From: Cardiobacteriaceae bacterium
Lineage (GTDB): Bacteria; Pseudomonadota; Gammaproteobacteria; Cardiobacteriales; Cardiobacteriaceae
Assembly: GCA_017934275.1 (NCBI GenBank)
Contig: JAGBJT010000043.1
Coordinates: 1-34,336 of the forward strand
Direction of reading: 5' to 3'
Length of the DNA stretch: 34,336 nt
Positions 2,084-33,840 of the stretch are shown piece after piece; position 1 is the stretch's first letter, and each line of letters opens with the position of its first letter. The translations under genes were made by a program, and so were the position numbers. The notes below the pieces were generated by a model, which saw only the letters and a program-made list of their open reading frames with translations, was not told the DNA's origin and searched no databases.

Positions 2084-4486
2084 TTAATCAAATTTATAAC
2101 CAAATTCAAGCCAAATTTGCCGTCCTAAATCGTAGCTTGTTCCCGAACTACTTTTATCGGAAGTGTTTTGTTTATTGAGCAAGTTATAAACATTGTATTC
2201 CGCACCCAATTTCATATCCCAAGTAAAGCGGCTGGGAATGCGCATTTCGTCGTAAAAATCCAGCCATTTATAACCGTTCATATTGGTGTAATCACCGTAA
2301 TTAGCGAGGGCGTAATATTCCCCTGTATAGCCAAATTTTTTATACGATGATGTCCAATTAAAGGTGTTATTTAAGTTCCATTTACCACCCAACATATTCC
2401 ATTCTGAATTTGTATTTAACTTAACGGTATAAGGACTGGAAAAGTTTTGAGTTGTTTGCGGTCTTTGGGAATAACGAATAATCTCACCGTTATACATAAT
2501 GTAATAGTCATTCAATTCATAGTTCGACACTGAACCGTAATCCACGAAATTGCGTTTAGTATCCGTCCAATCCAGAGATAATTTAACCGTGTTATCCACA
2601 CCATAAATATTGATTGGTTCTTTATTTTCCAGCATCAAACTCACTACATTTGTGCGACTTTTTCCTTCATTTGTATAAAAATAGTAGTTACTTGTGTATT
2701 TATCATCATCTTTTCCATCTTCTCCTATTCCGTCGGAATAAAGCCCTGTTTTCCAACGGCGGCGGATATCGTCTTTGCCTTCACGGTAAATATATTTTCC
2801 CGTGAAATCCCAATTGCCAACTTGTTGATTGATTGCAAAAGATAATTCATCGGTATGCGGAACTTTTAGATCGCTGTAACGGGTATCGTCTTTGGTTTTG
2901 GTGTAGCAATTTGTATCTTTTGTGCCATCGCATTCGTGGTCGGCTTCAAACCAATCTTTGCCTGGATCGTTACGGCGGTAAGAAGTCATCAAACTATCAA
3001 TACCGTCTTGTAGTTTTAAGCCATAAATCTGCCCTTCGTAATATCTATTCGCACCGAAAGTCAGGCTGGTTTTATATTTTGAGTTATCGTCGAAATTCCA
3101 CGGTGCTTGATAATCAATTGAAAGTCGCGGTGCTTTTGTAGTCTGCTCGGCAAATTGGCTTCTATCAATCCGAATACCAGGACGAACACCTAATTCACCG
3201 TATTTTTTATTGTCTCCCAAGGAAAAACGGATATCGTCTTGCAGGAAAAACGCGAGATTTTTATCGGTTATTTTGAATTTTGCAGGCTCGTAGTAATAGC
3301 CGTAAGTGAAAAATTGTCCGTATAAATACTTCGGCAAACGGTATGTACCTCCTGTGTATGGATTTGTATACTCTTCCACCACAGCATTTACCCCATCGGT
3401 GTAATTATTGATGGTATTTTGAGCATCGGTGCGGTTAGAAATATAAGCAACGGACGGATCGCAGAATTGCATATCGGTTTGCAAACAGCGCTCTTGTTGT
3501 TCTTTGGTCATATAGCTTGGATTATTAGCTTTCGAACCAGTTGAAGCCCGCCAAAAACCTTTATCTCGCTCATAAGTTGCATCAAGATATTCAAATTCGA
3601 AACCAGCTTTAATTTTGTGCTCGATGTTTTCGCCCGTTTTGAACGGTGTCAGGTCAATTTTGAAGGTATCTTTCAAGGCAGTTTCGGTTTGAATTCCTGG
3701 AACATAACCGCCTTCACGGGCAATTCCGCCCCAAGTACTCCAATTTTTATTTTCACTGGAAATCCAATACCGCAAAGCGTCATAACCGTTTGCTTCGTTT
3801 TCGTCGGATTTAATTGAATAGTTCAATTCATTAGAAATCTTACCGATATCGGTGTTTATATATTGATTGGCGGTAATAATATGACCACCGTGATTTATAT
3901 CCGTCCAAGTATTCGGGCTCGTGCCAGGAATATAAACTCTTTCCGAACTCGGTGCATATGTATAAGAGAATTCTAAATTTACATCTTCCGTTGGGTCATA
4001 ATAGACTTTTGCCATTCCGTTATAGTTATAATTTTTCTTATTAACTTTATATTTGTGATAACCGCCGCTTTTTTCGAGCGGAGTTGCGTAATTAGCATAA
4101 GTCTCGTCATCGACATATTCGTTTGATAAATAAAGCGGAATTTTTGAATAAGTTCGATCTAATTGCCAAACAACACCGAGCTCTTGCGTCGGTTTTGCCT
4201 CACCTGAAATTTGCGTAACCTGCTTGTAATATTCAGGCTGATTTGTAGAAAAATCGCTGGTATAAGCCCTTGAAAAATCCTTTTGCTTATCTTCTTGAAT
4301 GTGATATTTCGTCAAGGAATGCGGAAAACCTTTGTCGTAATTACCGTTTGTATATTTATGACTAATTTTTACCGCCAAATCTTTTTCGGGCTTTTTGATT
4401 TTTGCCTCAACCACACCGCCGCTAAAACTACCGTGCGAAGCATCGACATTCATATCCTGCACTTCAATGCTGTCTAATAAATCCAC
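2084..4486 (-). CDS. TonB-dependent receptor, C-terminal part (plug end and beta-barrel), separated by frameshift
   Basis: 800 codons from a GTG at 4486, opening with DLLDSIEVQDMNVDASHGSF and SGGVVEAKIKKP, the end of a TonB-receptor plug domain. It continues as a long series of amphipathic, aromatic-rich beta strands and ends LEFGYKFD, close to the usual aromatic C-terminus of an outer-membrane barrel. The plug start is in the next frame upstream (4495-5226). The two frames overlap only around 4490-4505, in an aaagtaaagtataagt stretch, where one added base would join them. Together they would make about 1045 residues, a normal size for the large members of this family. The ligand cannot be read from the sequence; iron or another metal chelate is the usual guess. 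Confidence 0.8.
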   Translation of the reverse strand: MDLLDSIEVQDMNVDASHGSFSGGVVEAKIKKPEKDLAVKISHKYTNGNYDKGFPHSLTKYHIQEDKQKDFSRAYTSDFSTNQPEYYKQVTQISGEAKPTQELGVVWQLDRTYSKIPLYLSNEYVDDETYANYATPLEKSGGYHKYKVNKKNYNYNGMAKVYYDPTEDVNLEFSYTYAPSSERVYIPGTSPNTWTDINHGGHIITANQYINTDIGKISNELNYSIKSDENEANGYDALRYWISSENKNWSTWGGIAREGGYVPGIQTETALKDTFKIDLTPFKTGENIEHKIKAGFEFEYLDATYERDKGFWRASTGSKANNPSYMTKEQQERCLQTDMQFCDPSVAYISNRTDAQNTINNYTDGVNAVVEEYTNPYTGGTYRLPKYLYGQFFTYGYYYEPAKFKITDKNLAFFLQDDIRFSLGDNKKYGELGVRPGIRIDRSQFAEQTTKAPRLSIDYQAPWNFDDNSKYKTSLTFGANRYYEGQIYGLKLQDGIDSLMTSYRRNDPGKDWFEADHECDGTKDTNCYTKTKDDTRYSDLKVPHTDELSFAINQQVGNWDFTGKYIYREGKDDIRRRWKTGLYSDGIGEDGKDDDKYTSNYYFYTNEGKSRTNVVSLMLENKEPINIYGVDNTVKLSLDWTDTKRNFVDYGSVSNYELNDYYIMYNGEIIRYSQRPQTTQNFSSPYTVKLNTNSEWNMLGGKWNLNNTFNWTSSYKKFGYTGEYYALANYGDYTNMNGYKWLDFYDEMRIPSRFTWDMKLGAEYNVYNLLNKQNTSDKSSSGTSYDLGRQIWLEFGYKFD

Positions 4487-4494
4487 ATCAATAC

Positions 4495-5226
4495 TTATAC
4501 TTTACTTTGCGCGCGACCGCGAGGACGACCGAGCCAAGAGCCGTGATTCCAGCTTGTTCCGTCCGTTCCCGTTGCAGCGGGATCGATGCGAGAAGTCAAG
4601 CTTGCACCGTCCAAAGTTATTTTGTTCGAGTAATACTTTCCGCCTGAAATCGAAATATTTTTCGGATCAATTTGACCAGGATTAGTCGAAGAATTAGATG
4701 TATTCGAATATCGGACATTTGGCAGCGTTCGAAGCGCAGATGCAATATCACCGTTACCCGTTGATGATGTTTGCAATTGTTGGCGGTTTATTTTTGCGGT
4801 GTATTCATTTGTCTTATTATTCTGGACACCTGTAACCGTAATTATGCCTAAATCACTACTCACCGCTGATGTTGTATTACTTTGACTGATATTTGTATAT
4901 TGATTATCTGTATTTGTAATATTTTCGCTATCTTCAACTATTCCAACATCGCCATAATTTTGCGGTAAAACGCTTGTATCAATAAATTCATTTGGCAATG
5001 TTGTTGCTATTTCAGCGTTATTTGTAATACTTGGTAATTCATTTGGAATAACTATGCCGTAACTTGTCGTATTTTGAGCTACAAATTGATTAGCTTGCGG
5101 TTCGGCTTCACCAAAATTTATCGCGGAAACACGAGAGACTGGCGCGGTGAATTCTTCGGCAAAACTAGCGGTTGAAACAATGGTGGCGACTGCATAAGTT
5201 AATTTTTTGTGGTTAATTTGCGACAT
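4495..5226 (-). CDS. TonB-dependent receptor, N-terminal part (signal peptide, TonB box, plug), separated by frameshift
   Basis: 243 residues, opening MSQINHKKLTYAVATIVSTA then SFAEE, a plausible signal peptide. A long Asn/Thr/Ser-rich linker follows, then GIITVTGVQ (TonB-box-like, about residue 125), and plug motifs LPNVRYSNT, NISISGGKYYSNKITLDGAS and WLGRPRGRAQ. It then runs into a stop at 4495 instead of continuing to IDVDLLDSIEV in the other frame. Start choice: ATG at 5226 with aggac about 6 nt upstream on the minus strand. Most of the plug is here, so this fragment alone cannot form a channel. Either the gene is broken, or one base is missing in the assembly. Confidence 0.8.
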   Translation of the reverse strand: MSQINHKKLTYAVATIVSTASFAEEFTAPVSRVSAINFGEAEPQANQFVAQNTTSYGIVIPNELPSITNNAEIATTLPNEFIDTSVLPQNYGDVGIVEDSENITNTDNQYTNISQSNTTSAVSSDLGIITVTGVQNNKTNEYTAKINRQQLQTSSTGNGDIASALRTLPNVRYSNTSNSSTNPGQIDPKNISISGGKYYSNKITLDGASLTSRIDPAATGTDGTSWNHGSWLGRPRGRAQSKV

Positions 5227-14979: not shown

Positions 14980-16224
14980 TTACGGTATTGAATATGTGCA
15001 GAACTCACCGTTAATTTTGTGCTGATGACATTCTTTTTTGGTGGATTTTTCCCGTAAATTTTCTGCCTCTTTCAACGCTTTTTCGACAAAAAAATTAACA
15101 TCGGAAAATTGCAAAAGTCCATACTCTGGCTCGCCATTTTTTCCCCTCTTTTGATTTTGCCAAGATAAAAATTCATCGTTTGAATAAGCGGAATTTACCG
15201 CAATCATTTCTTCATTATTTACATTCTTATCGCCGTAATAAGCAATTGTTCCATCTTTATTCAAAATATAACTAACCGTCTTTTTATTTTCTCCCCTCTT
15301 TTCATTATTTAAGCTATAAACCGAGCTTTCTGCTAATAATATTTTTCCATCACGGAAATAAATATTGAAGTTATATGTAATATTTTTACCATCTTTGCTT
15401 GGAATTTCGAAGTTATAAAACAAAGTTAGCGGTTGATTTTTAGCATCAAAACTCATTATTAAAGATGGGTTTTTATACTCTGTTACATCTTGAATTTCAT
15501 ATAACGGTGCAATATTTTCCCATTTGTAATTAGTTGTATTTTTGATTTTATAAATATTATAAGAATATGCCAAAACTTTATTCGGTTCAACATCAGTATT
15601 TACCGCGATATTTTTTGTTTTTTTTAATAATTCCTTTGCTTCTAACTCACAAATCCTGCAATTTTTATATTCACCTTCTATTCTTTTTCCTTCCTCTCCT
15701 GGCTTATAAAAACTAAGCTCTCCGTTCTTAAAATAATATTGTTCCGAAACTGGCGGCTTGCTAACAAAAGCTGCGAATAATTCCTCATCAATAAAATAGT
15801 ATTGTGTATAGCCATCAAATTTGTCTTCATTATTAAATTGTGTTGCTGAAATTTTTACAACTTTGTCATCAAGCAAGATATATTCCAGCTCTCTTACCGT
15901 ATTATTATTCCTCTCTCGCCTGTGAATTTTCTCCCCTCTAAATGACAACATTTCCAATTGCATTATCATTTTGCCAATATCTTCTTTTTTCCAATTTTTA
16001 TCTAATTTTATTTCCCCTGTTAGGTCCAATTCTTCCCTTAATGGACGAAGTTTTTCAGCCTCCATTTGCATTTGTAATGCCGCCCGTTCCTGTGGAGACA
16101 TAGACAATACTTCGTTTAATTTGTCTATTGAAACAACTTTTATTGTTGTAGTTGCATTATTTTCTGCTTCTTCTGCCAAAACACTACAACTTAAAAACAA
16201 AGCAATCAATAAGCGTATTTTCAC
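14980..16224 (-). CDS. Exported protein of unknown function, translationally coupled to glgA
   Basis: 414 residues starting at a GTG whose last bases overlap the glgA stop (GTGA), so it is translated by coupling. The N-terminus MKIRLLIALFLSCSVLAEEA is a signal peptide with likely cleavage after VLA; LFLSC is a poor lipobox. The mature part is hydrophilic, Lys/Glu/Asn-rich, with repeated YYF, NGELSFYKP and DGTIAYYGD-like segments that suggest beta-rich, MORN-like character, and a CRIC pair. I recognise no family. A periplasmic or surface protein locked to glycogen synthase is odd, because glycogen is cytoplasmic. In Pasteurellaceae-type clusters glgP sits at this place. Base use is AT-rich like the neighbours. 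Confidence 0.7.
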   Translation of the reverse strand: MKIRLLIALFLSCSVLAEEAENNATTTIKVVSIDKLNEVLSMSPQERAALQMQMEAEKLRPLREELDLTGEIKLDKNWKKEDIGKMIMQLEMLSFRGEKIHRRERNNNTVRELEYILLDDKVVKISATQFNNEDKFDGYTQYYFIDEELFAAFVSKPPVSEQYYFKNGELSFYKPGEEGKRIEGEYKNCRICELEAKELLKKTKNIAVNTDVEPNKVLAYSYNIYKIKNTTNYKWENIAPLYEIQDVTEYKNPSLIMSFDAKNQPLTLFYNFEIPSKDGKNITYNFNIYFRDGKILLAESSVYSLNNEKRGENKKTVSYILNKDGTIAYYGDKNVNNEEMIAVNSAYSNDEFLSWQNQKRGKNGEPEYGLLQFSDVNFFVEKALKEAENLREKSTKKECHQHKINGEFCTYSIP

Positions 16225-17681
16225 AACTCTTCCTCTTCTTTTTTTCCACTCTTAATACCGAAAGATAAATACATATCCAAATAATTATTTGCCGCTTTTT
16301 CCCAAGAATGTTCTTCTTGCATCGCTGCTGTCTGCATTGCTTCAAATTGTTTTTGATTTTTCCAAGTTTGTAAAAAACGGTCGATTGCGAGACCCAAATC
16401 GTGCTCGTATTCATAATTAAATACAAATCCGTTTTCGCCTGCAACTCCTTCAAAAACCGTATCGGCAAGCCCGCCCGTGCGCCGCACAATCGGCAAAGCA
16501 CCATAAGCCAAACCGTAAAGCTGTGTCAAACCACAAGGCTCAAAACGGCTCGGAATAACAATTGCATCTGCCGCCGCCACAATTTCGTGCGAAAGAGATT
16601 CGTTGTAACCGATATACGCCGCAATATTTTTCGGATCGCGCCAAGCAAGATAGTTAAACCAATCTTCCAGATATTTTTCACCGCTACCCAAAATCACAAA
16701 TTGGAAGTTCAAACCTCCAGCGTCAAGGCGGTTTTCCAGATTTCGTGCTAGCAAATCCGCGCCTTTTTGTTCCGCCAGACGGGAAATCATCACAATTAAC
16801 GGCAATCTGCGTCGCGTATTCAAGCCAAGATTACGGCGCAAAGTGTTTTTGCAAATCTTTTTATTTGCGAGTTTTTTCGCCGTGAAGTTTTTAGAAATAA
16901 GTTCGTCAGTTGCGGGATTCCAAATATCGCTATCAATACCGTTCAAAATTCCCGTTAAGCGTTTTTCGCGCTTACGGGCGGCGAGCAATCCTTCCATACC
17001 GTTTCCCGCTGGATAACGGGTTATTTCCGCGGCATAAGTCGGCGAAACCGTGCTTACTTGGTCGGAGTAAAAAATTCCCGCCTTCAAAAATGAAACATTG
17101 CCGTAAAACTCCAAACCTTCCATCTGAAACATCATCGGATCGAGCCAAATTTTCGCTAAATCACAACCGATAAACACACCTTGATATGCAATGTTGTGAA
17201 TAGTAAAAACACTTTGCACGCTGCTGCCCCAATGCCGTAAATACGCCGCTGCCAAACCAGTTTGCCAGTCGTGAGCGTGGAGAATGTCCGCCTTACCCCA
17301 AAGTTGATCAGCACCGTCTGCAATCGCCGCAGCCGCCCAAGAAAGAAGCGCAAAACGGCTGCAATTGTCGGCGTAGTCGCGGTAGTAGCAGTCGTAATAC
17401 GGATTACCGTCGCGGTTGTAAAGATGCGGTGCGTCAATCAGATAAAGCTTCAAACCTTGATATTCACCGTAACGCAGAGTTACATCGCCCGCAAAAGAAT
17501 CTGTGCGAAAAATCGCGTGCGTTTCAGAAATTTTCTCGCGCAAGGCGGAATAAAACGGCAAAATCACCCGCGCATCACAGCCGAGATTTTGCTGATAAAG
17601 CGGTAAAGCACCGACAACATCAGCAAGACCGCCAGTTTTAATTAACGGGAAACATTCACTTGCAGCGTGCAAAATTTTCAT
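16221..17681 (-). CDS. glgA: Glycogen synthase (ADP-glucose), GT5
   Basis: 486 residues, close to the usual 475-480. It extends alpha-1,4-glucan from ADP-glucose in the cytoplasm. Visible: the N-terminal ADP-glucose site KTGGLADVVGALP (Lys15), ILHAHDWQTGLAAAYL, VFTIHNIAYQG, GILNGIDSDIWNP, VMISRLAEQKGADLL and the C-terminal catalytic block PSRFEPCGLTQLYGLAYGAL followed by RRTGGLADTV. ATG at 17681 with gagattgaaatg: ggaga lies about 6 nt upstream. It is separated from glgC by a terminator and a mobile element, so its expression may be partly uncoupled from the upstream glg genes. Confidence 0.96.
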   Translation of the reverse strand: MKILHAASECFPLIKTGGLADVVGALPLYQQNLGCDARVILPFYSALREKISETHAIFRTDSFAGDVTLRYGEYQGLKLYLIDAPHLYNRDGNPYYDCYYRDYADNCSRFALLSWAAAAIADGADQLWGKADILHAHDWQTGLAAAYLRHWGSSVQSVFTIHNIAYQGVFIGCDLAKIWLDPMMFQMEGLEFYGNVSFLKAGIFYSDQVSTVSPTYAAEITRYPAGNGMEGLLAARKREKRLTGILNGIDSDIWNPATDELISKNFTAKKLANKKICKNTLRRNLGLNTRRRLPLIVMISRLAEQKGADLLARNLENRLDAGGLNFQFVILGSGEKYLEDWFNYLAWRDPKNIAAYIGYNESLSHEIVAAADAIVIPSRFEPCGLTQLYGLAYGALPIVRRTGGLADTVFEGVAGENGFVFNYEYEHDLGLAIDRFLQTWKNQKQFEAMQTAAMQEEHSWEKAANNYLDMYLSFGIKSGKKEEEEL

Positions 17682-17876: not shown

Positions 17877-19184
17877 TTATTCTTCGCCTGAATGTGCATT
17901 CCTTTCCGCGGTGATGTTTTCGAGCATCGCTTGATTTACCAGCACAATCCCCTGCTTACTCACTCGGAAATGCGCTTGGTCAAATTCGGCATTTACTCCA
18001 ATTTGCAAACCGTCTGGCACTTCGCAATATCGATCCAAAATCGCATTACGGATAACACAGTTTTTACCGACAAAGCAATCAGGCAGCATTACCGTCGATT
18101 CAATCACCGAGTTTTCCTTAATTTTGCAGCGCGGAAAAATCACCGAATGCGAAATTTCCGCATCTTCAATCACCGAACCGCCGCTCACCAGAGAATTGTC
18201 CAAAGTGCGGTCGCGCGGTGTTTTGTAGAAAAATCTCGTCGGCCAAGTTTGCTGCGGTCTGCCGAGGATTAGCCAGCTTTCGTCATACAAATTAAGTTGT
18301 GGATGCTCGGAACATAAATCCATATGCGCGCCCCAATAAGCGTCCAAAGTTCCGACATCGCGCCAATAAACAAGTCCGTCGTGCGTTCTACCGCGGCAAG
18401 AGCGTTCAAACGGATGCGCATAAACAACACCATCTTGCACCGCTTTCGGAATGATGTTTTTACCGAAATCGTGGTCGGTGTCGGTTGAAGTCGCTTCTTT
18501 TTCGAGAATTTCATACAAATAATCAGCATTGAAAACATAAATTCCCATCGAAGCCAGAGAATAATTCGGACGACCTGGAATAGTCGGCGGATCTTTCGGT
18601 TTTTCCACAAAGCCGACAACATTGAGCTGATCATTGACATCCATAATCCCGAACTCACCCGCTTCTTGTTTCGGAACTTCGATGCAAGCAACGGTGCATT
18701 TCGCGCCCGTCATTGAGTGATCGGCAAGCATTTTGCGGTAATCCATTTTGTAAATATGGTCGCCAGCGAGGATTAGCACATATTTACAGCGGTAATGGCT
18801 TTTCATAATCCGCATATTTTGATAAACAGAATCCGCCGTACCGCGATACCAAGTATGTTCATCAATCTGCTGACGGGCAGGCAGCATATCGATATATTGA
18901 TTTCGTTCATACGGCAAAAAACTCCAACCGCGTTGCAAATGCCGCAGCAGCGAATGCGCGGCATATTGCGTAACCACACCGATTTTTAAGATGTTGGAAT
19001 TGACACAATTCGAAAGCGCAAAATCAATAATCCGTCGATTACCGCCGAAATAAACCGCAGGTTTAGCACGGTTATCAGTAAGTTCATAAAGCCTTGAACC
19101 ACGACCACCAGCCAACACCAAAGCCAGAGTTTCTTCGGCAAGCTTGGTTTCGTCCTCGCTAGTTTTTTTGCTCTGTTTCATCAT
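17877..19184 (-). CDS. glgC: Glucose-1-phosphate adenylyltransferase (ADP-glucose pyrophosphorylase)
   Basis: 435 residues. It makes ADP-glucose from glucose-1-phosphate and ATP, the committed and regulated step. Visible: the nucleotidyltransferase signature LALVLAGGRGSRLYELTDNR, AKPAVYFGGNRRIIDFALSN, WYRGTADSVYQNM, ILAGDHIYKMDY, the glucose-1-phosphate Lys in VGFVEKPKDPP, and a C-terminal left-handed beta-helix (SVIEDAEISHSVIFPRCKIK). Where E. coli has Lys39, which binds the activator fructose-1,6-bisphosphate (TNKRAKPA), this protein has Asn (TDNRAKPA), so activation may differ. The gene begins 10 nt after glgX, in the same operon. Confidence 0.96.
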   Translation of the reverse strand: MMKQSKKTSEDETKLAEETLALVLAGGRGSRLYELTDNRAKPAVYFGGNRRIIDFALSNCVNSNILKIGVVTQYAAHSLLRHLQRGWSFLPYERNQYIDMLPARQQIDEHTWYRGTADSVYQNMRIMKSHYRCKYVLILAGDHIYKMDYRKMLADHSMTGAKCTVACIEVPKQEAGEFGIMDVNDQLNVVGFVEKPKDPPTIPGRPNYSLASMGIYVFNADYLYEILEKEATSTDTDHDFGKNIIPKAVQDGVVYAHPFERSCRGRTHDGLVYWRDVGTLDAYWGAHMDLCSEHPQLNLYDESWLILGRPQQTWPTRFFYKTPRDRTLDNSLVSGGSVIEDAEISHSVIFPRCKIKENSVIESTVMLPDCFVGKNCVIRNAILDRYCEVPDGLQIGVNAEFDQAHFRVSKQGIVLVNQAMLENITAERNAHSGEE

Positions 19185-19194
19185 TTTCTATCCC

Positions 19195-21678
19195 TCAAAC
19201 TTCGTCTTGAACCGCAACTTGCAACACCCAAATTCCCTGCCCCGCGAGCTTTATTCCTGACGGAAAACGGAATTCTTCCTTATTTGGTGCAAGCACTATG
19301 TCCTGTATTTCAATTCCTTTCGGCAGCCAAAATTCGTTTTCTTCATTGTTGCCATTTACTAATAAAAGTAAATTTTCTTTGCCGCGCAAAAGAATTTGTA
19401 TTAAAGGTTGTGTGGGGTTGTGCCAATTTTCGTCTTTCATCGGCAGGCCATGTTGATTAAACCAGTTTATTTCTTCTTCTTGCCAGAACTCACCGCGGTA
19501 AATATCGCTGTATTCCTCGCGGATTTGGATTAAAGCTCTGGTGTATGCAAATAAATTGTGATCCTGATTTTTCCAATCAATCCAGCTGATGGAATTGTCT
19601 TGGCAGTATGCGTTGTTATTGCCTTTTTGCGAATTGGCAATTTCGTCGCCTGCAAGCAGCATCGGTGTGCCATTAGATAAAAATAAAGTTGCGAGCATCG
19701 CGCGCCGTGCTTGGTCGCGCTGTTTGAGAATTTTTTGATTATTAGTTGTGCCTTCAACGCCGAAGTTATTGCTGTAATTAGCATTCGTGCCGTCGCGATT
19801 TTCTTCGCCGTTAGCTTCGTTATGTTTTTCTTGATAAGCGGTTAAATCCGCGAGAGTGAAACCGTCGTGGGCGGTTAAAAAATTGATTGAATTACTGGAC
19901 GCGCGGTCGGTAGAGAAAACATCGTGTGATGCGCAAAATCTTGTCGCCAAAGCGGATAAATCACCGCTATTACAAAGCCAAAAACGCCGAACATCATCAC
20001 GGAATTTATCGTTCCATTCGGCAAAATTGTTTGGATAGTTACCGAGTTGATAGCCGTAATCAGCAATATCCCAAGGTTCAGCTATAAATTTTTTCCCCCG
20101 CAAAATCGGATCTTGATACAAAGCAGCAAAGAACTTTCCATTACGGTTGAAATGCGGTTCGCGCGCCAAAATCGAGGCTAAATCAAAACGGAAACCGTCA
20201 ATGTGAAATTCCTGCACCCAATAACGCAAATTGTCTAAAAGCCAAGTGAGCACATTTTCATTACTGCAATTAACCGTATTTCCGCAACCTGACCAATTTT
20301 GATTTCCGCCTCGTTCATTCAACCAATACCAAGAACGGTTATCCAATCCGCGCTGACAGAGCATTTCACCGCCATCGCCGCCTTCCGCCGTATGGTTATA
20401 AACCACATCGAGGATTACTTCGATTCCCGCACGGTGCAAAGCTCGAACTGCAATTTTCATTTCATCATCGGCTTTATCGCAATCAAGCGCGTAATTCGGA
20501 TTAAGCGCGAAAGCCGCAACTGTGTTGTAGCCCCAATAATTCGTAAGACCGAGTTTTTTCAAATGCGGTTCATCGGCGGATTGCGCAACAGGCAGAAGTT
20601 CTACCGCGGTAACGCCGAGATTTTTCAAATAATCAATAACTGCTGGTTCAGCCAAAGCCGCAAAAGTTCCCGCTTTTTTACCGAGTTCAGGGAATTGTTT
20701 GGTGAGACCCTTGGGATGCGCTTCATAAATGATGGTTTTATCCCAAGAAATGTTCGGAGAAATGTCGGAATACCACTCAAAAGAATCTTTTTTGACAACT
20801 GATTTGTAATCGTCGGTTAATTTGCGGGAATACGGATCGAACAGAAGTTTTTCAGGATTGAATAAATCACCGCGAGCGGGATTGTTTTCACCGTAAGCGC
20901 GGTAGGCATAAACAATTCCCTCACCGACGGTTGCTAAAAATCCGCAGAACACATCACCGATTTTGCGCATTTCAAAGCGTTGTTCCTTGCCGTCATCATC
21001 AAATACGCAAAGTTCAATTTTCGTTGCAGAGCGAGAAAACACCGCGAAATTCACCCCGTAACGGTCGCAAGTTGCGCCTAGCGGATAAGGTTTTGCGTGT
21101 TCTGGTTCGTATTTCATTTGAGAAATTTCCGCACCAAAACCGTTGTCGTGCTTTAACACATCTTTCCAGCGATATTTACCGTCAGATTTACCGCGCACCG
21201 AAACACCGAAATAATTCAAAATCCGATACACAGTCGGTGCTTCTTCACCGATATCTTCGAAGTATTGCTTGTATTTACGGTAAAGCTCGACATTGCTTTG
21301 ACCAGGCTCTGATTCGTAAATATTGCGGAAATCTTTAATCCAGCGTTCTTCGTTGCGCTCTGGTTTGGTGTAAGACGCGGTTTCGTCATCATTGATGCCT
21401 GCACGCGGGCGGAGATAAATTTCTGGCTTCTGTTCTAATTTGACAGCGAGCTTGTATTGCTGAATCCATTGATAAATCGTTTCGCGAGATAGTCCTGTGC
21501 TTTCACGGAAATTCGCAGTTTTTGCCTCGCGGATTGCTTCCAAAATTTCGGCTGGTAGATCGCCTGTTTTCGATTTTTTGGCAAATTCCAAAACTGGAAC
21601 TGGGGTGTAGAGCAGATATTCAACGATTTTTACTCTCGCTCGCGCAACAGCAAGCTTTCCTCTATTTGTTTTCTTCAT
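19195..21678 (-). CDS. glgX: Glycogen debranching enzyme GlgX with an N-terminal Mu-transposase-like DNA-binding region
   Basis: 827 residues from ATG 21678; a longer TTG start (21723) lies on the -10 box and is unlikely. Residues from about 196 are a full GlgX: a CBM48 start (PYPLGATCDRYGVNFAVFS), then a GH13 barrel with YEAHPKGLT, ILDVVYNHTAEG, nucleophile segment DGFRFDLASIL (about 494), acid FIAEPWD (about 531) and LTAHDGFTLADL (about 603). It removes alpha-1,6 branches from limit dextrins. Residues 1-190 are extra: a basic start, a LPAEILEAIREAK segment, a helix-turn-helix (STGLSRETIYQWIQQYK, 59-76) and a helical module (DFRNIYESEPGQSNVELYRK to APTVYRIL, 116-154). These resemble the DNA-binding modules of Mu-type transposases without the DDE core. 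One uninterrupted frame. Confidence 0.92.
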   Translation of the reverse strand: MKKTNRGKLAVARARVKIVEYLLYTPVPVLEFAKKSKTGDLPAEILEAIREAKTANFRESTGLSRETIYQWIQQYKLAVKLEQKPEIYLRPRAGINDDETASYTKPERNEERWIKDFRNIYESEPGQSNVELYRKYKQYFEDIGEEAPTVYRILNYFGVSVRGKSDGKYRWKDVLKHDNGFGAEISQMKYEPEHAKPYPLGATCDRYGVNFAVFSRSATKIELCVFDDDGKEQRFEMRKIGDVFCGFLATVGEGIVYAYRAYGENNPARGDLFNPEKLLFDPYSRKLTDDYKSVVKKDSFEWYSDISPNISWDKTIIYEAHPKGLTKQFPELGKKAGTFAALAEPAVIDYLKNLGVTAVELLPVAQSADEPHLKKLGLTNYWGYNTVAAFALNPNYALDCDKADDEMKIAVRALHRAGIEVILDVVYNHTAEGGDGGEMLCQRGLDNRSWYWLNERGGNQNWSGCGNTVNCSNENVLTWLLDNLRYWVQEFHIDGFRFDLASILAREPHFNRNGKFFAALYQDPILRGKKFIAEPWDIADYGYQLGNYPNNFAEWNDKFRDDVRRFWLCNSGDLSALATRFCASHDVFSTDRASSNSINFLTAHDGFTLADLTAYQEKHNEANGEENRDGTNANYSNNFGVEGTTNNQKILKQRDQARRAMLATLFLSNGTPMLLAGDEIANSQKGNNNAYCQDNSISWIDWKNQDHNLFAYTRALIQIREEYSDIYRGEFWQEEEINWFNQHGLPMKDENWHNPTQPLIQILLRGKENLLLLVNGNNEENEFWLPKGIEIQDIVLAPNKEEFRFPSGIKLAGQGIWVLQVAVQDEV

Positions 21679-21724
21679 TTTTGATGGTCTCGATAGTTTT
21701 GTTTTACTGTAAATAACCACCAAA

Positions 21725-21779
21725 ATTATAAATAAAGATTTTTTACTATTTCGTATTTATGCAAAAAAAAAAAAAAAAA
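21725..21779 (-). promoter_or_regulatory. glgX promoter region with a 17-base homopolymer
   Basis: On the minus strand TATAAT (plus-strand attata, 21725-21730) lies about 47 nt before the glgX ATG. No good -35 is present. A run of 17 T (A at 21763-21779) begins 33 nt upstream of the -10 box, where an UP-element-like tract would sit. Tracts this long change length by slippage. The rest of the 21679-21922 gap is AT-rich with no other signal. Confidence 0.5.
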
Positions 21780-21922
21780 CGATTTTTTACAATTTTTTAA
21801 TATTTTGCGTTCAAGCTTGCAAATTGCTTCTTGGACAAGGCTTTTCAAAGATTATTTTTTTCAAACAAGAGCAAAGAAATTTCTGCATAAATTGAGATTT
21901 TTGAGTTTCAAGATGAATTGTT

Positions 21923-22507
21923 TTAGCGGTAATTTCTTAATTTTTCCGCATCTTCATCAATTTCACGGATAACGCGGCAAGGCACGCCAGCTGCCAAAAC
22001 TCCCGCGGGAATATCACGATTAACCACCGCTCCTGCCGCAATAATGCTTCCTTCACCGATATTCACACCAGCGAGCACTTGCACTCCTGCACCAATCCAA
22101 ACACTGTTTTCCACCGTAATCGCTTTGGCATATTCCAAGCCCAAATTGCGCCGTGCTCTATCCAAAGGATGCGCGGCGGTATAAAAACCGCAATTTGGCG
22201 CGATAAAAACATCGTTACCGAAAGAAACTTCGGCTGCATCGAGAATTACCAGATTGTGATTGGAATAAAAGTTTTCACCGATAGAAATACCGTCGCCGTA
22301 GTCGCAATAAAACGGTGCGGTAATTTCAAAATTTTTGCCCGTTTTTTTGAAAAGCTCGCGAATGATTTGTTCTTGTTCAGAAATCGCCGACGGCAGCAAA
22401 TGATTAAAACGAAAGCAAGCTTCTTTGGCAAAAAGCCTTCTTGCACGGATTTCAGGAGTATTCGGGTCGTAAAGCCCAAATGAATAGTCATTTAATCGTT
22501 TATTCAT
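21923..22507 (-). CDS. maa: Maltose/galactoside O-acetyltransferase-like protein (left-handed beta-helix)
   Basis: 194 residues from ATG 22507 (MNKRLNDYSFGLYDPNTPEI). The longer frame to 22540 runs through the glgB terminator and is rejected. It transfers acetyl from acetyl-CoA to a sugar hydroxyl. Visible: an N-terminal Mac-type helical cap (ARRLFAKEACFRFNHLLPSA), FYCDYGDGISIGENFYSNHN, the catalytic His in GFYTAAHPLDRARR, and hexapeptide repeats to the end (VWIGAGVQVLAGVNIGEGSI, GAVVNRDIPAGVLAAGVPCR). It sits inside the glycogen cluster, so maltose or short maltodextrins are the likely acceptors, but the family also takes glucose and galactosides. A terminator separates it from glgB. Confidence 0.85.
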   Translation of the reverse strand: MNKRLNDYSFGLYDPNTPEIRARRLFAKEACFRFNHLLPSAISEQEQIIRELFKKTGKNFEITAPFYCDYGDGISIGENFYSNHNLVILDAAEVSFGNDVFIAPNCGFYTAAHPLDRARRNLGLEYAKAITVENSVWIGAGVQVLAGVNIGEGSIIAAGAVVNRDIPAGVLAAGVPCRVIREIDEDAEKLRNYR

Positions 22508-22520
22508 AAGAAATAAAAAC

Positions 22521-22538
22521 GCGGGGCAAAAACCCCGC
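22521..22538 (-). terminator. Terminator after the malQ-glgB fusion gene
   Basis: Perfect 6-bp gcgggg / ccccgc stem with a 6-nt loop, ending on the minus strand in GTTTTTAT. It lies 17 nt beyond the glgB stop and 14 nt before the acetyltransferase start. Confidence 0.7.
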
Positions 22539-22555
22539 AATTTCGTCTGTAATTT

Positions 22556-25500
22556 TTATTCTTGACGGAATAAGAACACCGTTGCCAAAGGCGGTAAATC
22601 AATCGAAATTGAATATGGTTTGCCGTGTGCTTCTTGCTCTTGGGCGCGGAATTCTGGATAAATCGGATAACCGCTACCGTTATAAACCTTGTCGTCAGAG
22701 TTCAAAATCACACGGTATCTACCGCCACGATGCACACCGAAACGGTAAGCCTGCCGCACAACTGGCGTGAAATTGCTAATTACGATGATTTCATTACCAC
22801 CGTGGTCATAACGGCTAAACACGAATACCGAATTGTCCGCATCATCAACCACCAGCCATTCAAAACCGCCTGGATTTTGATCACGCTGATAAAGCGCGGG
22901 ATAACTCTTATAAACACGGTTCAAATCCCGCACAAAGTTTTGCACGCCTTTATGCCAACCGCCCTCTTCTTCGAGCAAATACCAATCCAAGCTTTCTGAA
23001 TAATTCCACTCTCTGCCTTGCGCGAATTCATCGCCCATAAACAAAAGCTTCTTACCTGGATACCCCCACATATAACCGTAATACGCCCGCAAATTCGCAA
23101 ATTTCTGCCAGCAATCACCAGGCATACGGTCGAGGATTGAGCGTTTTCCGTGCACAACTTCATCGTGCGAAAGCGGAAGAATGAAGTTTTCGGAGTATTG
23201 ATAAATCATTCCGAAAGTCATTTTGTTGTGATGGTATTTACGGTTAATCGGATCTTCCTGCATATAGCGCAGAGTGTCGTTCATCCAACCCATATTCCAT
23301 TTATATTGGAAAGCCAAGCCTTCATCGTGCGTTACACCGCCGAATGAAGTCGATTCTTCGGCAATACACATCGCCCCAGCAGCTTCCGTGCGCAACATTT
23401 GATTTGAACGGCGTAAAAACTCAATCGCTTCAATATTTTCCTTACCGCCGTATTGATTCGGAATCCACTCACCGTCTTCACGGGAATAATCGCGGTAAAT
23501 CATCGAAGCAACCGCATCAACCCGCAGACCGTCAAAGCCGAAGCGCTCAATCCAATAAAGCGCATTACCACGCAGGAAATTCGCAACTTCCGTGCGTCCG
23601 AAGTTGTAAATCAGCGTATTCCAATCTTTGTGATAACCCTCACGCGGATCTTGATGTTCATAAAGAGCAGTGCCGTCAAAGCGTTGCAAACCGCTTTCAT
23701 CGGTAGGGAAATGTCCGACAACCCAGTCCAAAATTACATTCAAACCCGCTTGATGCGCCGCATGCACAAAATCGCGCAACTCTTGCGGTGAGCCAAAACG
23801 AGAAGTCGGTGCATAAAGTCCAGTCGGTTGATAGCCCCAAGAACCGTCATATGGATATTCGGTAACGGGCATCAATTCGATATGCGTAAAGCCCATATCC
23901 TTGACATACTCAACCAAATCACGGGCAAAATCAGCGTAAGTGAGCCAAAAATTGTTTTCAGGATTGCGTCGCCAAGAACCGAGATGCACTTCATAAATAC
24001 TTATCGGTTTATCTACCGCATTCGCCTCAATACGGTTACGGACTTTACCCGCCGCCGCCGAGCGAGTTGGCAAACTGCGCACCAAAGATGCCGTTCCAGG
24101 ACGAAGCTCCGCACCGAAAGCGTACGGATCAGCTTTCATACGCAGATTGCCGTTTGCATCAAGAATTTCATACTTATATAAATCGTTTTCACAAACGCCT
24201 GGAATAAAAATCTCCCAAACACCGATATTGCTTTGCAGCCGCATCGGATTGCGCCGACCATCCCAAGCATTCCAATCACCGACTACCGAAACCCGTTTTG
24301 CATTCGGTGCCCAAACCGCGAAATGCACACCTTTAACACCGTCAAATTCCTGCAAATGCGCACCGAGATATTCAAACGGTCGCAAATGATTACCCTGCCC
24401 CAAAAGCCAACTGTCAATCTCACCAAGATATGAAGGAAAACGGTAAGGATCTTCAATAACCAAGCCGTCGCCGTTTTTGTAATCAATAGCGATGCGATAT
24501 TGAGTATCCGCCGAGGGCAAAACCGCCGCAAACAATCCGCGCGCATCAATTCTTTGCATTTCACAAATATTTCCGCCGTTATTGCGATTGACCAAATAAA
24601 CCGCATCGGCTTCGGGTTGAATTGTCCGCACTACAACCGAACCGTCCGCACGATGATGCTTACCGAGATAAGCAAAAGGATCGTTCTCCACGGCATTAAA
24701 TAGACGGTCAATAATTTCGCGCTCGCCGTTTTCGATTTTGTATGCAAGTTTGGCTTTTTTCATACGCTGATCTCCGAGTATTGAAAGTAATTGTGAAAAC
24801 TCACGATGTTTAGGCAGTTCTTCAAGGCTAATCGGCAGTTTTACCGCCCAATTTGGATAGCCTTCTGCCACACCTGGAAAGTTGAAGTTTTTATTCATCG
24901 CGATGAGATTTTCGAGCTGAATCCCATAAAGCTTCGCCGCAGTTTGCGCGGAAAATTGATGCACCGCACGGCGCAAAATTGAATTTCCACGGCGCGGATA
25001 TTTTTCGTTTTCGGTCAAAACACGGTTTTTTTGCATTGCAACAAAAAGCTGCATTTTTTCTGCATTACGGGCATCTATCGCTTTTTTAAGTTCCGCGTCA
25101 GTTGCGAATATGCCGAATTCCCGCATTTTTCTTAAATCAGTTTCCGCCCACCAAGCAGCAAACGGCGCAACATCGTGAGTAGAAATAACGCTAATCGATT
25201 GCGGATTGTCGTGCTGCGGACGGTTATGAAGATTGAAATACAAAACGCTATATGCAAAAACACCGCGCTTTTTGAGTAATTCGCGGAAACCATCAGGCAC
25301 AATTCCTAAATCTTCCCCGATGACCATACATTTCGCGCGCCTGCTCTCCACAATCAAAATTGCCAGCAGAATGTCCAAGGGATAGCGGATATACGCGCCA
25401 TTTTCCTCACCGTCAAAATTTTTAATCCACCAAAGACGGGCAAGCAACATCGCGTGATCGAGGCGCAAAATCGAATAGTTACGCATATTGGCGCGCAGGA

Positions 25501-26803
25501 GTTTGATAAAAAATTCAAAGCCCGTCGCTGCCAAAATTTTCGGATTGATAGGCGGCAAGCACCAATTTTGACCTTGCGGCGCAAGCGGATCAGGAGGAGC
25601 TCCAACTCCGCAATCTAGGCAATAAAGCTCGGAATTTAACCAAGTATCCGCACCGCCTTTCGCACATCCAACCGCCAAATCACCGTAAAAACCAAGCCGC
25701 ATTCCTAATTTTTCTGCCTGCTTTTGCAAACCTGCAAACTGCTCAGCAATCTGCCATTGCAAATACATATAAAAGTCAATTTCCGCCTCATTGCGAGCAG
25801 CAAAAACCGCTACCGCCGCCGATTTCGGTGATTGATATTTTTCTTCCCAAGCAAGCCAACCGTCGCCACGCTGGCGTAATTTGGGATTTTTGGCAATTTG
25901 CGCTTTATCTAGTGCTTCAAATAAAGCAAATCCACGCAAATCTTCACCGCCAGCACGGCAGAAATCAGCGAATTTTTTCTTCATATCCGCGCTACGGCTT
26001 GCCAAAAACGCCTTAAACGAAGCACGCAAAATCTCTTCTTTAACTCGCCAAACAGCGGCGTAATCCACAGTTTCAAGCTCGCGCAAGCGTGCAATTTCTG
26101 GTTCTAGTTTTTGATAAAGCTTTGCTACCGTCTGACTTTTGAAACCAACAACCCGTTCAACCGCTAAATAAATCGGATTAAGCCAAAGCCGCGATGAAGG
26201 GGAATAAGGAGAACACTGTTCGGGACGGGAAGAAAATAAAGCGTGAAGCGGATTGAGACCAATGAAATCAATTTGATATTGCGCGGTTTTCTTTAAGAAT
26301 TCAGATAAATCAACAAAATCACCGATACCGCAGTTACGCGCGCTACGCAAAGAATAAAGCTGCAAAGTGATGCCCGTTGCGGGTTTATCGTCAAGTTCGG
26401 GAATTTCGAAAACTCGCTCCTGGGCGGCAATTACGAAATAACTACGGACAGTTTCACCGTAAAGATTGATTTTGTAATAACCGTCAGCAAGCGGTGGAAC
26501 AAATGCGCGACATAAAGAATCACTGACTTTTTCCAAAGAAAGAACTGTTGTTTTACCGCTTTCATCTTGCAAATCCGCCCGCGTAAAGTTTTCTGCCTCG
26601 CAAGAAAAAAACTGCCAAGACGCAACTTCCGACTGCACCACATTCGCACCAGAGTATTGCCGTAATTTTTCAGGCACGACCTCCAAACGCCGCGCAAAAC
26701 CTTGAATTACCTTGTCAGAAATTTGATAAATATTGCCGTCCGCTCCGCAATATTGCCTCTCAACCAAGTTTTCTGTCTCTCGCGCGAAAAACTCTGTGCT
26801 CAT
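22556..26803 (-). CDS. malQ-glgB: Fused 4-alpha-glucanotransferase / 1,4-alpha-glucan branching enzyme (MalQ-GlgB)
   Basis: 1415 residues; ATG 26803 with gaggtgat upstream. Residues 1 to about 690 are a complete GH77 amylomaltase: [29 protein letters not shown], nucleophile segment [16 protein letters not shown] (about 447), [13 protein letters not shown] and [13 protein letters not shown]. From about 694 ([11 protein letters not shown]) to the end is a complete GH13 branching enzyme with CBM48: [50 protein letters not shown] (about 1091), CIAEEST (about 1144), [20 protein letters not shown] and a C-terminal [10 protein letters not shown]. MalQ rearranges maltodextrins, GlgB adds alpha-1,6 branches. 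In Pasteurella-like clusters malQ and glgB are adjacent separate genes; here the stop between them is gone. No frame break is visible. Confidence 0.96.
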
Positions 26804-26955
26804 AACATCACCTCGAAAATGTTTTTTATCTTTATTTATTTTTCAACCGTAAGTAAATAACTATTTATTTTTTACTAATTCACGATAACGGTAAAGATTT
26901 TCTAACAGCAAACTACAATGCCGAGCTCTTATCCACAAAACAATACGGACAAAAT

Positions 26956-30885: not shown

Positions 30886-33840
30886 ATGGCTACAAAAACC
30901 ACTTCTTCCAAAACATCTTCCAAGGCAAAATCATCTTCAACATCCGCAAAATCCAACAAAACAACTAGCAAAACCACGAGCAGCAATAAAAAAGAAAACA
31001 CGGATAACAACAAACTCTCCGCCAAGGAAAAGGTTAAAGCTGCACTTCTAGCAAAAAAATCAGCTAGCAAAGCAACAAACAAAACTGCGGAAAAGGCGGT
31101 AAGTAAAGCAACAAATAAAACGGATAAAAAAACAGCTACTACTGAAAAAACTGCGGCAAAAAAATCCGCAAGTCAAAAAAACACTACCAAAACTACCGCT
31201 GCAAAAAAAGACACTAAATCAGCAACCGCAAGCAGCAATAAAACGGCAAAAAATGCTGCGACTAAAACTACAAAAAACGCTCAAAAAGACACTAAAACTG
31301 CAAATAAAACAACAGCAAAGACCGAAATAAAAGCTAAAAAAACAACTGCAAAGACAACTCTCAAAGAAGAAATCACTGCTAGCAGGAGAAAAAACAGCCC
31401 AGCGGATACAAAAACAACCGCCAAAACAACAACCGAAAACCGCCGAAATTTGCTTGCACTGACGGCACATACGGATACAAAAACAACCGCCAAAGCAACA
31501 ACTGAAAACACCAGCGCAAAAAAAGTAGCGGAACAAAAAACTAGTAATAAACCGTCCAAAGCTCTGATTAGAGACCTACTCGCTCGCGGCAAAGAAAAAG
31601 GAAAAATCCGCTTCGGTGAAATCAAAAAAGTGCTGCAAATCACGGAAGAAAACGATGCAATCGTCGTCAAAAATCCTGTCGTGCTGAAAGTGTTAAACGC
31701 CTTCGCGGAACTAGATATCCGTATTACAGGTCTTCCGAATACGAAAAAAATTCCAATAGCAATCGAAAAAGAAGAAGTTAAACAGGAAGTTAAAACCAAA
31801 GAACTTTCCTATGAATTAAAAGAAAAACTTAAAGTCTTACGGGAAGCAAGCGCGAAGCAAGCTAATCAAACCATCGAAGAAGACGAATTGGAGCTCGAAG
31901 CCGAAGAAGAAATGCAGGAAATTCTCGACGAATTAGTCGAGCGCGGCAGAGATAACGGCGAAATTACCTTCGAAGAAATCAAAGACATTCTTCCGAATGA
32001 AATCTCGCTGGAAAGCAAAAATATGACTAACAACAGTCTTATCAACAAAATTTTGCAATATCTCACCGAGCAGGAAATAACCGTCATCGACGCGCCAGAA
32101 CTTGACGCAACCGCTGGCGAAATCAAAGCCGAAGACGAAAAACAACAAACCAAAAACACCGAAGTCGGTCGCACTACCGATCCCGTGCGGATGTATATGC
32201 GCGAAATGGGGCAATATTCCCTCATCAATCAATCAACCGAAATCGAAATCTCTAAACGCCTTGAACACGGTTTAAGCAGTGTGCGCGATAGCTTGGCGCA
32301 GTTTCCACTCTCGATGATGACTTTGTCGGATATCTTCCAGCGCACGGAAAGCGGTCAATGGAAGCTCGGCGACTTCATTACTGACTACTGCCTCGTTGAA
32401 GATATGGACGATAAATCCCTAGAAGCATTAGCCGCAAATCAGGCAGCAGCAGAAGCCGCAGCTAATCAAGAAAATTCAGACGATGCGGAAAATTTAGATG
32501 ATGACAATCAAGAAGTCCCCGACGATATTGCAGACGAAGATTCTTCCGACGACGACGAAGAAAACGAAGACGGCGAGCCAAATAAACCTTTCGGTAAAAA
32601 AAATAAACCGAATCCCAACAACGCAAAAGCAGAAAAATTACAACGGGCACGAGAAAAAATGCTCGAATTTGAAGAGCTCATCGCTAAATTACGCGACACA
32701 TACTCCAAAGGTAGCAAAGCATTAGAAAGCAAGGCGGGACAAAAACTGATGAGCGATATTCAGGAATTTCACCGCGGATTTTTCTTCACCAATAAAGCTG
32801 TTGAATTGATGGAAGCAAGAATCCAAAAACCAGCCGAACAAATCAGCAAAATCGATCAAAAAATCCGTCAAATCGCGGTAAATAAAGCAGGTTTGCCAAC
32901 GAGATATTTCATCAAAGCTTTTAACGGTAACGAAGAAAACCCAAATTTCCTAAACGAAGAACTCAAAAAGAAAACGCTTTATGCAGAAAGATTGCGCAAT
33001 TTGATGCCCGAAATCAACAAACTGCAATTGGAACTGGTCGCAATTTCCGAAAAATATCAAATGCCATCAGAAAAAATCCGTAGTCTGTATAAAACCATCA
33101 TCGCAGGACATAAAGAAGCTTTCAAAGCCAAAGAGGAAATGGTGCATGCCAACTTGCGGCTAGTAATTTCAATTGCAAAAAAATTCGCCAACCGCGGAAT
33201 GTCATTTATCGACCTCATCCAAGAAGGAAATATCGGTTTGATGAAAGCCGTAGATAAATTCGAATACCGTCGCGGATTTAAGTTTTCAACTTATGCAACT
33301 TGGTGGATACGGCAGGCAATTACCCGTTCAATCGCCGACCAAGCCCGCACTATCCGCGTCCCAGTTCATATGATTGAAACCATCAACAAAATGAAACGAG
33401 CCTCACGCGCTCTCGAACAGCAACTCGGTCGTGAACCAACTACCGAAGAAATCGCCCAAGAAATGGGTATCGATGAGCAAAAAATTCTCAAAGTTATCAA
33501 AATTGCAAAAGAACCCGTTTCTACCGAAAGCCCCGTCGGTGATGATGATGATGCACATCTCGGCGATTTCATCGAGGATACAAATATCCGCTCACCTGTT
33601 GAAAGCGCAACCGATAAAGCATTGGAAGAAGCAGTCAATACCGCTTTGAAAGGATTATCTCCTCGCGAAGAAAGAGTTTTACGAATGCGCTTCGGTATTG
33701 GTCTTACAACAGATCACACTTTGGAAGAAGTCGGTAAGCAGTTCGAAGTTACCCGCGAGCGAATCCGCCAAATCGAAACCAAAGCTATCCGCCGCCTCAA
33801 ACACCCAAAACGAGCAGAAATTATCAAATCCTTTATTTGA
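30886..33840 (+). CDS. rpoD: RNA polymerase sigma factor RpoD with H1-like N-terminal extension and two region-1.1-like modules
   Basis: 984 residues against 613 in E. coli; ATG with aaagga 10 nt upstream. Residues 1 to about 222 are Lys/Ala/Thr/Ser low-complexity sequence ([20 protein letters not shown] and onward), like histone H1 tails. Two similar modules follow: [22 protein letters not shown] (from 225) and [21 protein letters not shown] (from 345), both resembling sigma region 1.1. Region 1.2 begins about 430 ([15 protein letters not shown]). An acidic nonconserved segment spans about 520-590. Region 2 has [20 protein letters not shown] and [20 protein letters not shown], region 3 [20 protein letters not shown], and region 4 ends [20 protein letters not shown]. 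This is the housekeeping sigma. Many betaproteobacterial RpoDs have a Lys/Ala-rich tail; I do not know the doubled 1.1 module elsewhere. Confidence 0.97.
31405..31509 (+). repeat. Internal 36-bp direct repeat in the rpoD tail
   Basis: Two 36-bp copies starting at 31405 and 31474 (69 bp apart) with two mismatches, encoding [12 protein letters not shown] and [12 protein letters not shown]. The spacer ([10 protein letters not shown]) is unlike the surrounding Lys-rich sequence. It shows how the extension grows by duplication. Confidence 0.75.

Follow-up and report, generated by a model that had tools for sequence, protein, structure and literature searches.

Our analysis shows that the glycogen debranching enzyme GlgX of a Cardiobacteriaceae bacterium carries a 187-residue N-terminal extension that is homologous to the Ibeta-Igamma region with which Mu-type transposases bind transposon ends. 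In the window, i.e., the whole 34,336-nt stretch of DNA that was analyzed, the fused gene forms a single uninterrupted frame of 827 codons on the minus strand (19195..21678), running from an ATG at 21678 to a stop codon at 19195; an in-frame TTG is located 15 codons upstream of this ATG, at 21723. The same fusion is present in a sister genome (G001, a MAG of the Cardiobacteriaceae recovered from the reticulum of roe deer; locus L032 on contig JAFUTP010000063.1), where it likewise spans 827 codons in the same frame without any indel or stop. The two fused proteins are 92.5% identical over 827 aa, and the extensions on their own share 90% identity at the protein level and 87% at the DNA level. 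The fusion is known from these two species, each represented by an incomplete draft genome (63 contigs and 73% completeness for the source genome, 86% completeness for the sister). With a probability of roughly 0.4, we propose that the captured Mu end-binding region, joined in frame, makes GlgX a trigger enzyme that regulates glycogen genes.

GlgX proper comprises residues 188-827 (19198..21117, minus strand), as delimited by the start position in relatives and by a score of 775.9 bits against the GlgX model TIGR02100, which lies above the cut-off of 640.9 bits and identifies it as an equivalog. Pfam places the CBM48 domain at residues 199-284 and the alpha-amylase catalytic domain at residues 348-726, and the match to GlgX_C is slightly below threshold (23.1 versus 25.8 bits). 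Residue 188 is a methionine (MKYEPEHAKPYPLGA...) at about the position where the shorter GlgX proteins of relatives begin; it is followed by KYEPEHAKPYPLGA, and the relatives' proteins start a few residues ahead of the same motif (MKARAYPLGV... in genome G004). The extension itself consists of three parts, all encoded on the minus strand. An Ibeta-like module (residues 10-90; 21409..21651), delimited by hhalign and VIA-align, contains the segment LPAEILEAIREAK and a helix-turn-helix at residues 60-76 (21451-21501). It is followed by an Igamma-like module (residues 105-162; 21193..21366) and by a linker (residues 163-187; 21118..21192) that is the counterpart of the pre-DDE segment of Mu transposases and has kept G163, G167 and W171. 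Both Ialpha and the DDE domain are missing; the fused protein has no Pfam match to rve or Mu-transpos_C, and GlgX domains alone are found after residue 188.

In the Mu transposase, specific contact with the Mu ends is the task of Ibeta and Igamma, Ialpha attaches to the enhancer, and the DDE residues are part of IIalpha (PMC3362531). We compared the extension with Mu-like transposases that were gathered from contigs of phages and prophages and trimmed to the stretch ahead of the DDE domain. Residues 10-161 align to a profile of 26 such transposases with a probability of 96.5 and an E-value of 9.5e-10 in hhalign, at a score of 63.1 versus 21.5 for the best of 100 shuffled sequences. In hmmsearch, the Mu profile scores 37.4 bits on the extension and 39.1 bits on the sister copy, compared to at most 12.2 bits among 20,000 shuffled sequences. 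The alignment takes in Ibeta, Igamma and the conserved G...G...W linker ahead of the core, and residues F117, Y133, P148 and V150 of the extension are invariant with 23 phage transposases. In line with this, the Mu transposase family PHROG 310 matches residues 35-155 of the fused protein (E 7.9e-5); when searched over the whole draft genome, its sole match is the fused gene (E 4.2e-5), and in the sister genome its sole match is the orthologue (E 1.3e-4). Pfam detected the helix-turn-helix of the extension by sub-threshold matches only and gave no match to HTH_Tnp_Mu; NCBIfam matches were likewise sub-threshold, and the results of the two collections include HTH and IS481 models. This silence of Pfam is uninformative, since Pfam recognizes only Ialpha and the core of a bona fide phage transposase (L054) and likewise misses its Ibeta-Igamma stretch.

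Structure prediction points in the same direction. An AlphaFold2 model of the extension built with the transposase alignment reaches a pLDDT of ∼94 at residues 10-50 and of 87-91 at residues 60-90, is of moderate confidence in the Igamma part, and drops below 50 in the linker, at residues 162-168 and 181-188; the helix-turn-helix is intact in the predicted model. The same helices appear in a low-confidence model (57) for which the two glgX sequences were the only input, with no transposase in the alignment. When this two-sequence model was ranked against 358 chains by VIA-align, the top three places were taken by TnsB, TnsB and MuA (Z 5.2-5.7; all others at most 4.5), with MuA (4fcy, residues 98-165) superimposing at an rmsd of 2.6 over 61 residues. 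TnsB and MuA also head the list for the model with the phage alignment, again at their end-binding residues. Over both models, the Z-scores of 4.9-5.7 are low in absolute terms, and the weight lies on the fact that related chains head the list. Foldseek found nothing of significant E-value for the extension model in the PDB or BFVD, and the transposase profile had no match when it was searched against the sequences of solved structures; as MuA itself was missed, the latter search is uninformative. A preliminary description of this DNA had placed about 190 extra residues ahead of GlgX in one unbroken frame at 19195-21678; the coordinates are right, the extra residues number 187, the GlgX part is complete, and the segments cited at the time (LPAEILEAIREAK, STGLSRETIYQWIQQYK, DFRNIYESEPGQSNVELYRK and APTVYRIL) all lie within the extension. 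Its reading of these segments as Mu-type end-binding modules in that order agrees with hhalign, the shuffles, PHROG 310 and the fold ranking, and the catalytic DDE part, which it held to be absent, is indeed not detected by Pfam. As for the checks it had suggested, the predicted structure ranks the end-binding domains of TnsB and MuA first, whereas the profile search yielded the Mu match with hhalign and PHROG 310 but the helix-turn-helix only below the Pfam threshold.

Comparison of the two species showed a dN/dS of 0.136 for the extension (bootstrap 0.07-0.24) and of 0.081 for GlgX; within the extension, the ratio is 0.10 for Ibeta, 0.095 for Igamma and 0.28 for the linker. Third codon positions hold 46 of the 72 differences between the two extensions. 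Based on the low dN/dS and this share of third-position differences, the extension is very probably translated and constrained. The ten other Cardiobacteriaceae genomes searched lack the extension on their GlgX, and no other GlgX carries it among 369 sampled gammaproteobacterial genomes, 83 of which have a match to the GlgX model. Conservation and purifying selection (dN/dS 0.14) are as expected of the domesticated module postulated in the preliminary description, and the survey of relatives that it had recommended as a check on an assembly join gave the same junction in the sister species and GlgX proteins free of the extension in the other family genomes searched.

The fused gene stands at the head of a group of glycogen genes on the minus strand. 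Downstream, glgC follows after 10 bp (17877..19184), in the same order as in the sister genome, and is probably co-transcribed with the fused gene; glgA comes next (16221..17681). Upstream, a maltose O-acetyltransferase-like gene with Mac and Hexapep domains (21923..22540) separates the fused gene from malQ-glgB. The 4-alpha-glucanotransferase MalQ and the branching enzyme GlgB are encoded as one frame of 1415 residues (22556-26803, minus strand), and this long frame also occurs in G002, G003, G004 and other members of the family. In these three genomes, which represent three other genera of the family, glgX lies directly after glgB, and the same holds for G029, a genome that belongs to a different family within the order. 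In this genus, ∼1.4 kb lie between malQ-glgB and glgX, made up of the acetyltransferase-like gene, an AT-rich spacer and the transposase-derived region. Among the relatives examined, the acetyltransferase-like gene is found at this place in this genus only, and it may have arrived together with the transposase fragment. The 245-bp AT-rich spacer ahead of the fused gene is well conserved between the two species. At 21763-21779 it contains 17 consecutive A (T on the coding strand), and the sister species has a comparable homopolymer in the corresponding position; this tract is a candidate for slippage-based changes of expression. A scan for consensus promoters upstream of glgX found nothing. Elsewhere in the window, a TonB-dependent-receptor-like gene is split over two adjacent frames on the minus strand (4495-5226 and 2084-4486), perhaps by a frameshift, and an RpoD-like sigma factor of 984 residues (30886-33840, plus strand) has a long N-terminal extension of low complexity that is rich in Lys, Ala, Ser and Thr.

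The spacer upstream of glgX also harbors two copies of a 14-bp repeat (AAATWGTAAAAAWT), 44–45 bp apart in both species. In the window, these are AAATAGTAAAAAAT (21738..21751, minus strand), upstream of the start codon of the fused gene, and AAATTGTAAAAAAT (21782..21795, minus strand), 44 bp from it. A third copy with one mismatch, AATTAGTAAAAAAT (26867..26880, minus strand), is located upstream of malQ-glgB, again in both species. The malQ spacer has a length of 152 bp. If the pattern is widened to take in the third copy, it has seven matches in the source draft genome and nine in the sister, three of which in each genome are those in the glgX and malQ-glgB spacers. As the pattern was derived from the glgX region itself, and as 3 of the 12 intergenic regions of the window have some 14-mer in common with the glgX spacer in a null test, we regard the repeats as a weak lead to possible shared operator sites for the fused protein.

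We envisage that, in an ancestor of the genus, part of the gene of a Mu-type transposase, comprising Ibeta, Igamma and the linker, landed between malQ-glgB and glgX, that an acetyltransferase gene landed at the same place alongside it, in an order of events that we infer, and that the transposase part was fused in frame immediately ahead of the codon at which GlgX had formerly started. The chimera would be made as one protein from the ATG at 21678, as suggested by codon-level constraint through the modules and the linker, and GlgX would thereby carry a two-module helical DNA-binding domain. As a trigger enzyme, it could bind DNA, in the simplest case ahead of its own glgX-glgC-glgA genes and perhaps of malQ-glgB too, so that transcription of the glycogen genes would be tuned by whether a glucan substrate occupies GlgX. 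On the level of homology, the protein combines an enzyme and a putative DNA-binding domain in one chain, which is the build of a trigger enzyme. With predicted pI values of 9.3 for the extension, 9.5 for its Ibeta module and 5.0 for the GlgX part, the basic extension makes DNA binding plausible, and the location of glgX at the head of a glgX-glgC unit behind an AT-rich spacer of 245 bp would count for autoregulation. By analogy, the fusion most likely works like a trigger enzyme of the PutA/BirA type. The more detailed version, in which GlgX with its domesticated Mu end-binding domain would bind operators of both glgXCA and malQ-glgB and couple the glycogen state to transcription, is a doubtful one.

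What the extension would recognize on DNA is addressed by its residue pattern. At alignment columns conserved in at least 75% of the phage transposases, the extension is identical in 21 cases, similar in 12, different in 21 and gapped in 4. The retained residues, which include A12, R15, A52, W71, P91, W113, F117, Y133, P148, V150, G163, G167 and W171, belong mostly to the core; the recognition-helix Arg at position 66 is replaced by Glu, and several other conserved basic residues are also changed. Because of these replacements, DNA specificity is probably at least altered relative to the phage transposases, and the pattern would fit a domain that has kept its fold and has changed or lost its DNA preference. 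Retention of fold residues along with loss of conserved basic ones also favors a different view, namely that the extension is kept as an interaction, folding or tethering module, e.g., for non-specific DNA or nucleoid tethering, oligomerisation or the positioning of polymer granules, and is no longer a sequence-specific regulator. Constraint on both modules would agree with such a role, as would the extensive protein-protein contacts that Igamma makes in the Mu transpososome (PMC3362531). However, the Ibeta module is still basic, the helix-turn-helix is intact in the predicted model, and a gene that leads the glg unit is well placed for a regulator; we consider such a module a somewhat unlikely explanation.

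A fusion without a purpose of its own would be either functionless read-through or a gene from which GlgX is mainly made from Met188, with a separate product or leader upstream. The proximity of Met188 to the ancestral start would allow for this, but no clear Shine-Dalgarno sequence precedes Met188 in either species, no stop separates the two parts, dN/dS is far below 1 across modules and linker, and the differences within the extension fall largely on third codon positions as given above, so that we hold this to be improbable. A separate upstream gene was rejected, as there is no stop between the parts and codon-level constraint runs through the linker.

Searches for a close donor of the extension found none in GTDB genome contigs, where only the sister genome was recovered, in IMG/VR, in plasmids or in the 369 gammaproteobacterial genomes, and none in phages, where the best match is the transposase of a Mannheimia Mu-like phage with an E-value of about 1. 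A search of the 369 genomes for Ibeta-Igamma regions attached to other proteins returned, apart from the fused gene, four frames of 700–817 codons, approximately the size of an ordinary transposase. Truncated transposases block other elements by occupying their ends, and the extension could in principle defend against transposition by occupying the ends of Mu-like elements in this way, with GlgX as a passive carrier. What was captured corresponds exactly to the end-binding portion and leaves out catalysis, and Mu-type transposases exist in the family (G002 and G008). Such a defence is nevertheless very improbable, as no Mu-type transposase was found in the source or the sister genome (73% and 86% complete), the recognition-helix Arg is changed, and there is no reason to link this function with the glg operon. 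That assembly or sequencing united two genes can be dismissed, as the source genome is fragmented but the second genome repeats the identical junction and frame at 87% DNA identity without indels, and GC and GC3 are alike on either side of the junction between extension and GlgX.

The extension resembles the MuA family (phage Mu, Mannheimia phage vB_MhM_3927AP2, PHROG 310) in its profile, in the order of the two helical modules and in the linker ahead of the core. In contrast to MuA, it lacks Ialpha, the DDE core and the MuB-interacting C-terminus and is attached to a glycoside hydrolase; its identity to any phage transposase compared is about 18–25%, with several conserved basic residues changed. 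With ordinary GlgX (TIGR02100; E. coli GlgX), the fused protein shares a complete CBM48 and GH13 catalytic domain and the glgX-glgC-glgA unit, and differs in its 187 additional N-terminal residues and in a GlgX_C match just below the Pfam threshold. Among the open-access papers searched, we found no precedent for a fusion between a bacterial enzyme and the end-binding domain of a Mu-type transposase.

PutA, BirA and NadR are trigger enzymes with an added DNA-binding domain, and PutA binds operators beside its own gene in the absence of substrate (PMC8249747). The fused GlgX is similar in that a metabolic enzyme and a DNA-binding module would share one chain beside pathway genes, which is a comparison of how it may work only; in contrast to these proteins, its putative DNA-binding module is transposase-derived. 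The locus could serve as a natural experiment on two questions, namely how a single step can give rise to a trigger enzyme and whether enzymes of glycogen metabolism are able to sense and govern the operon that encodes them; relatives with a plain GlgX directly behind malQ-glgB offer the pre-fusion state for comparison. In eukaryotes, host-transposase fusions and transposase capture have been described (PMC12062965, PMC8700633), in which a transposase DNA-binding domain is likewise kept in frame with a host protein, whereas the fusion reported here is bacterial, of Mu type, on a metabolic enzyme and wholly devoid of the catalytic domain. TldR proteins, domesticated TnpB regulators of bacteria and phages (PMC13418256), are a further case of a mobile-element protein turned regulator, but they are relatives of an RNA-guided nuclease and are not fused to an enzyme.
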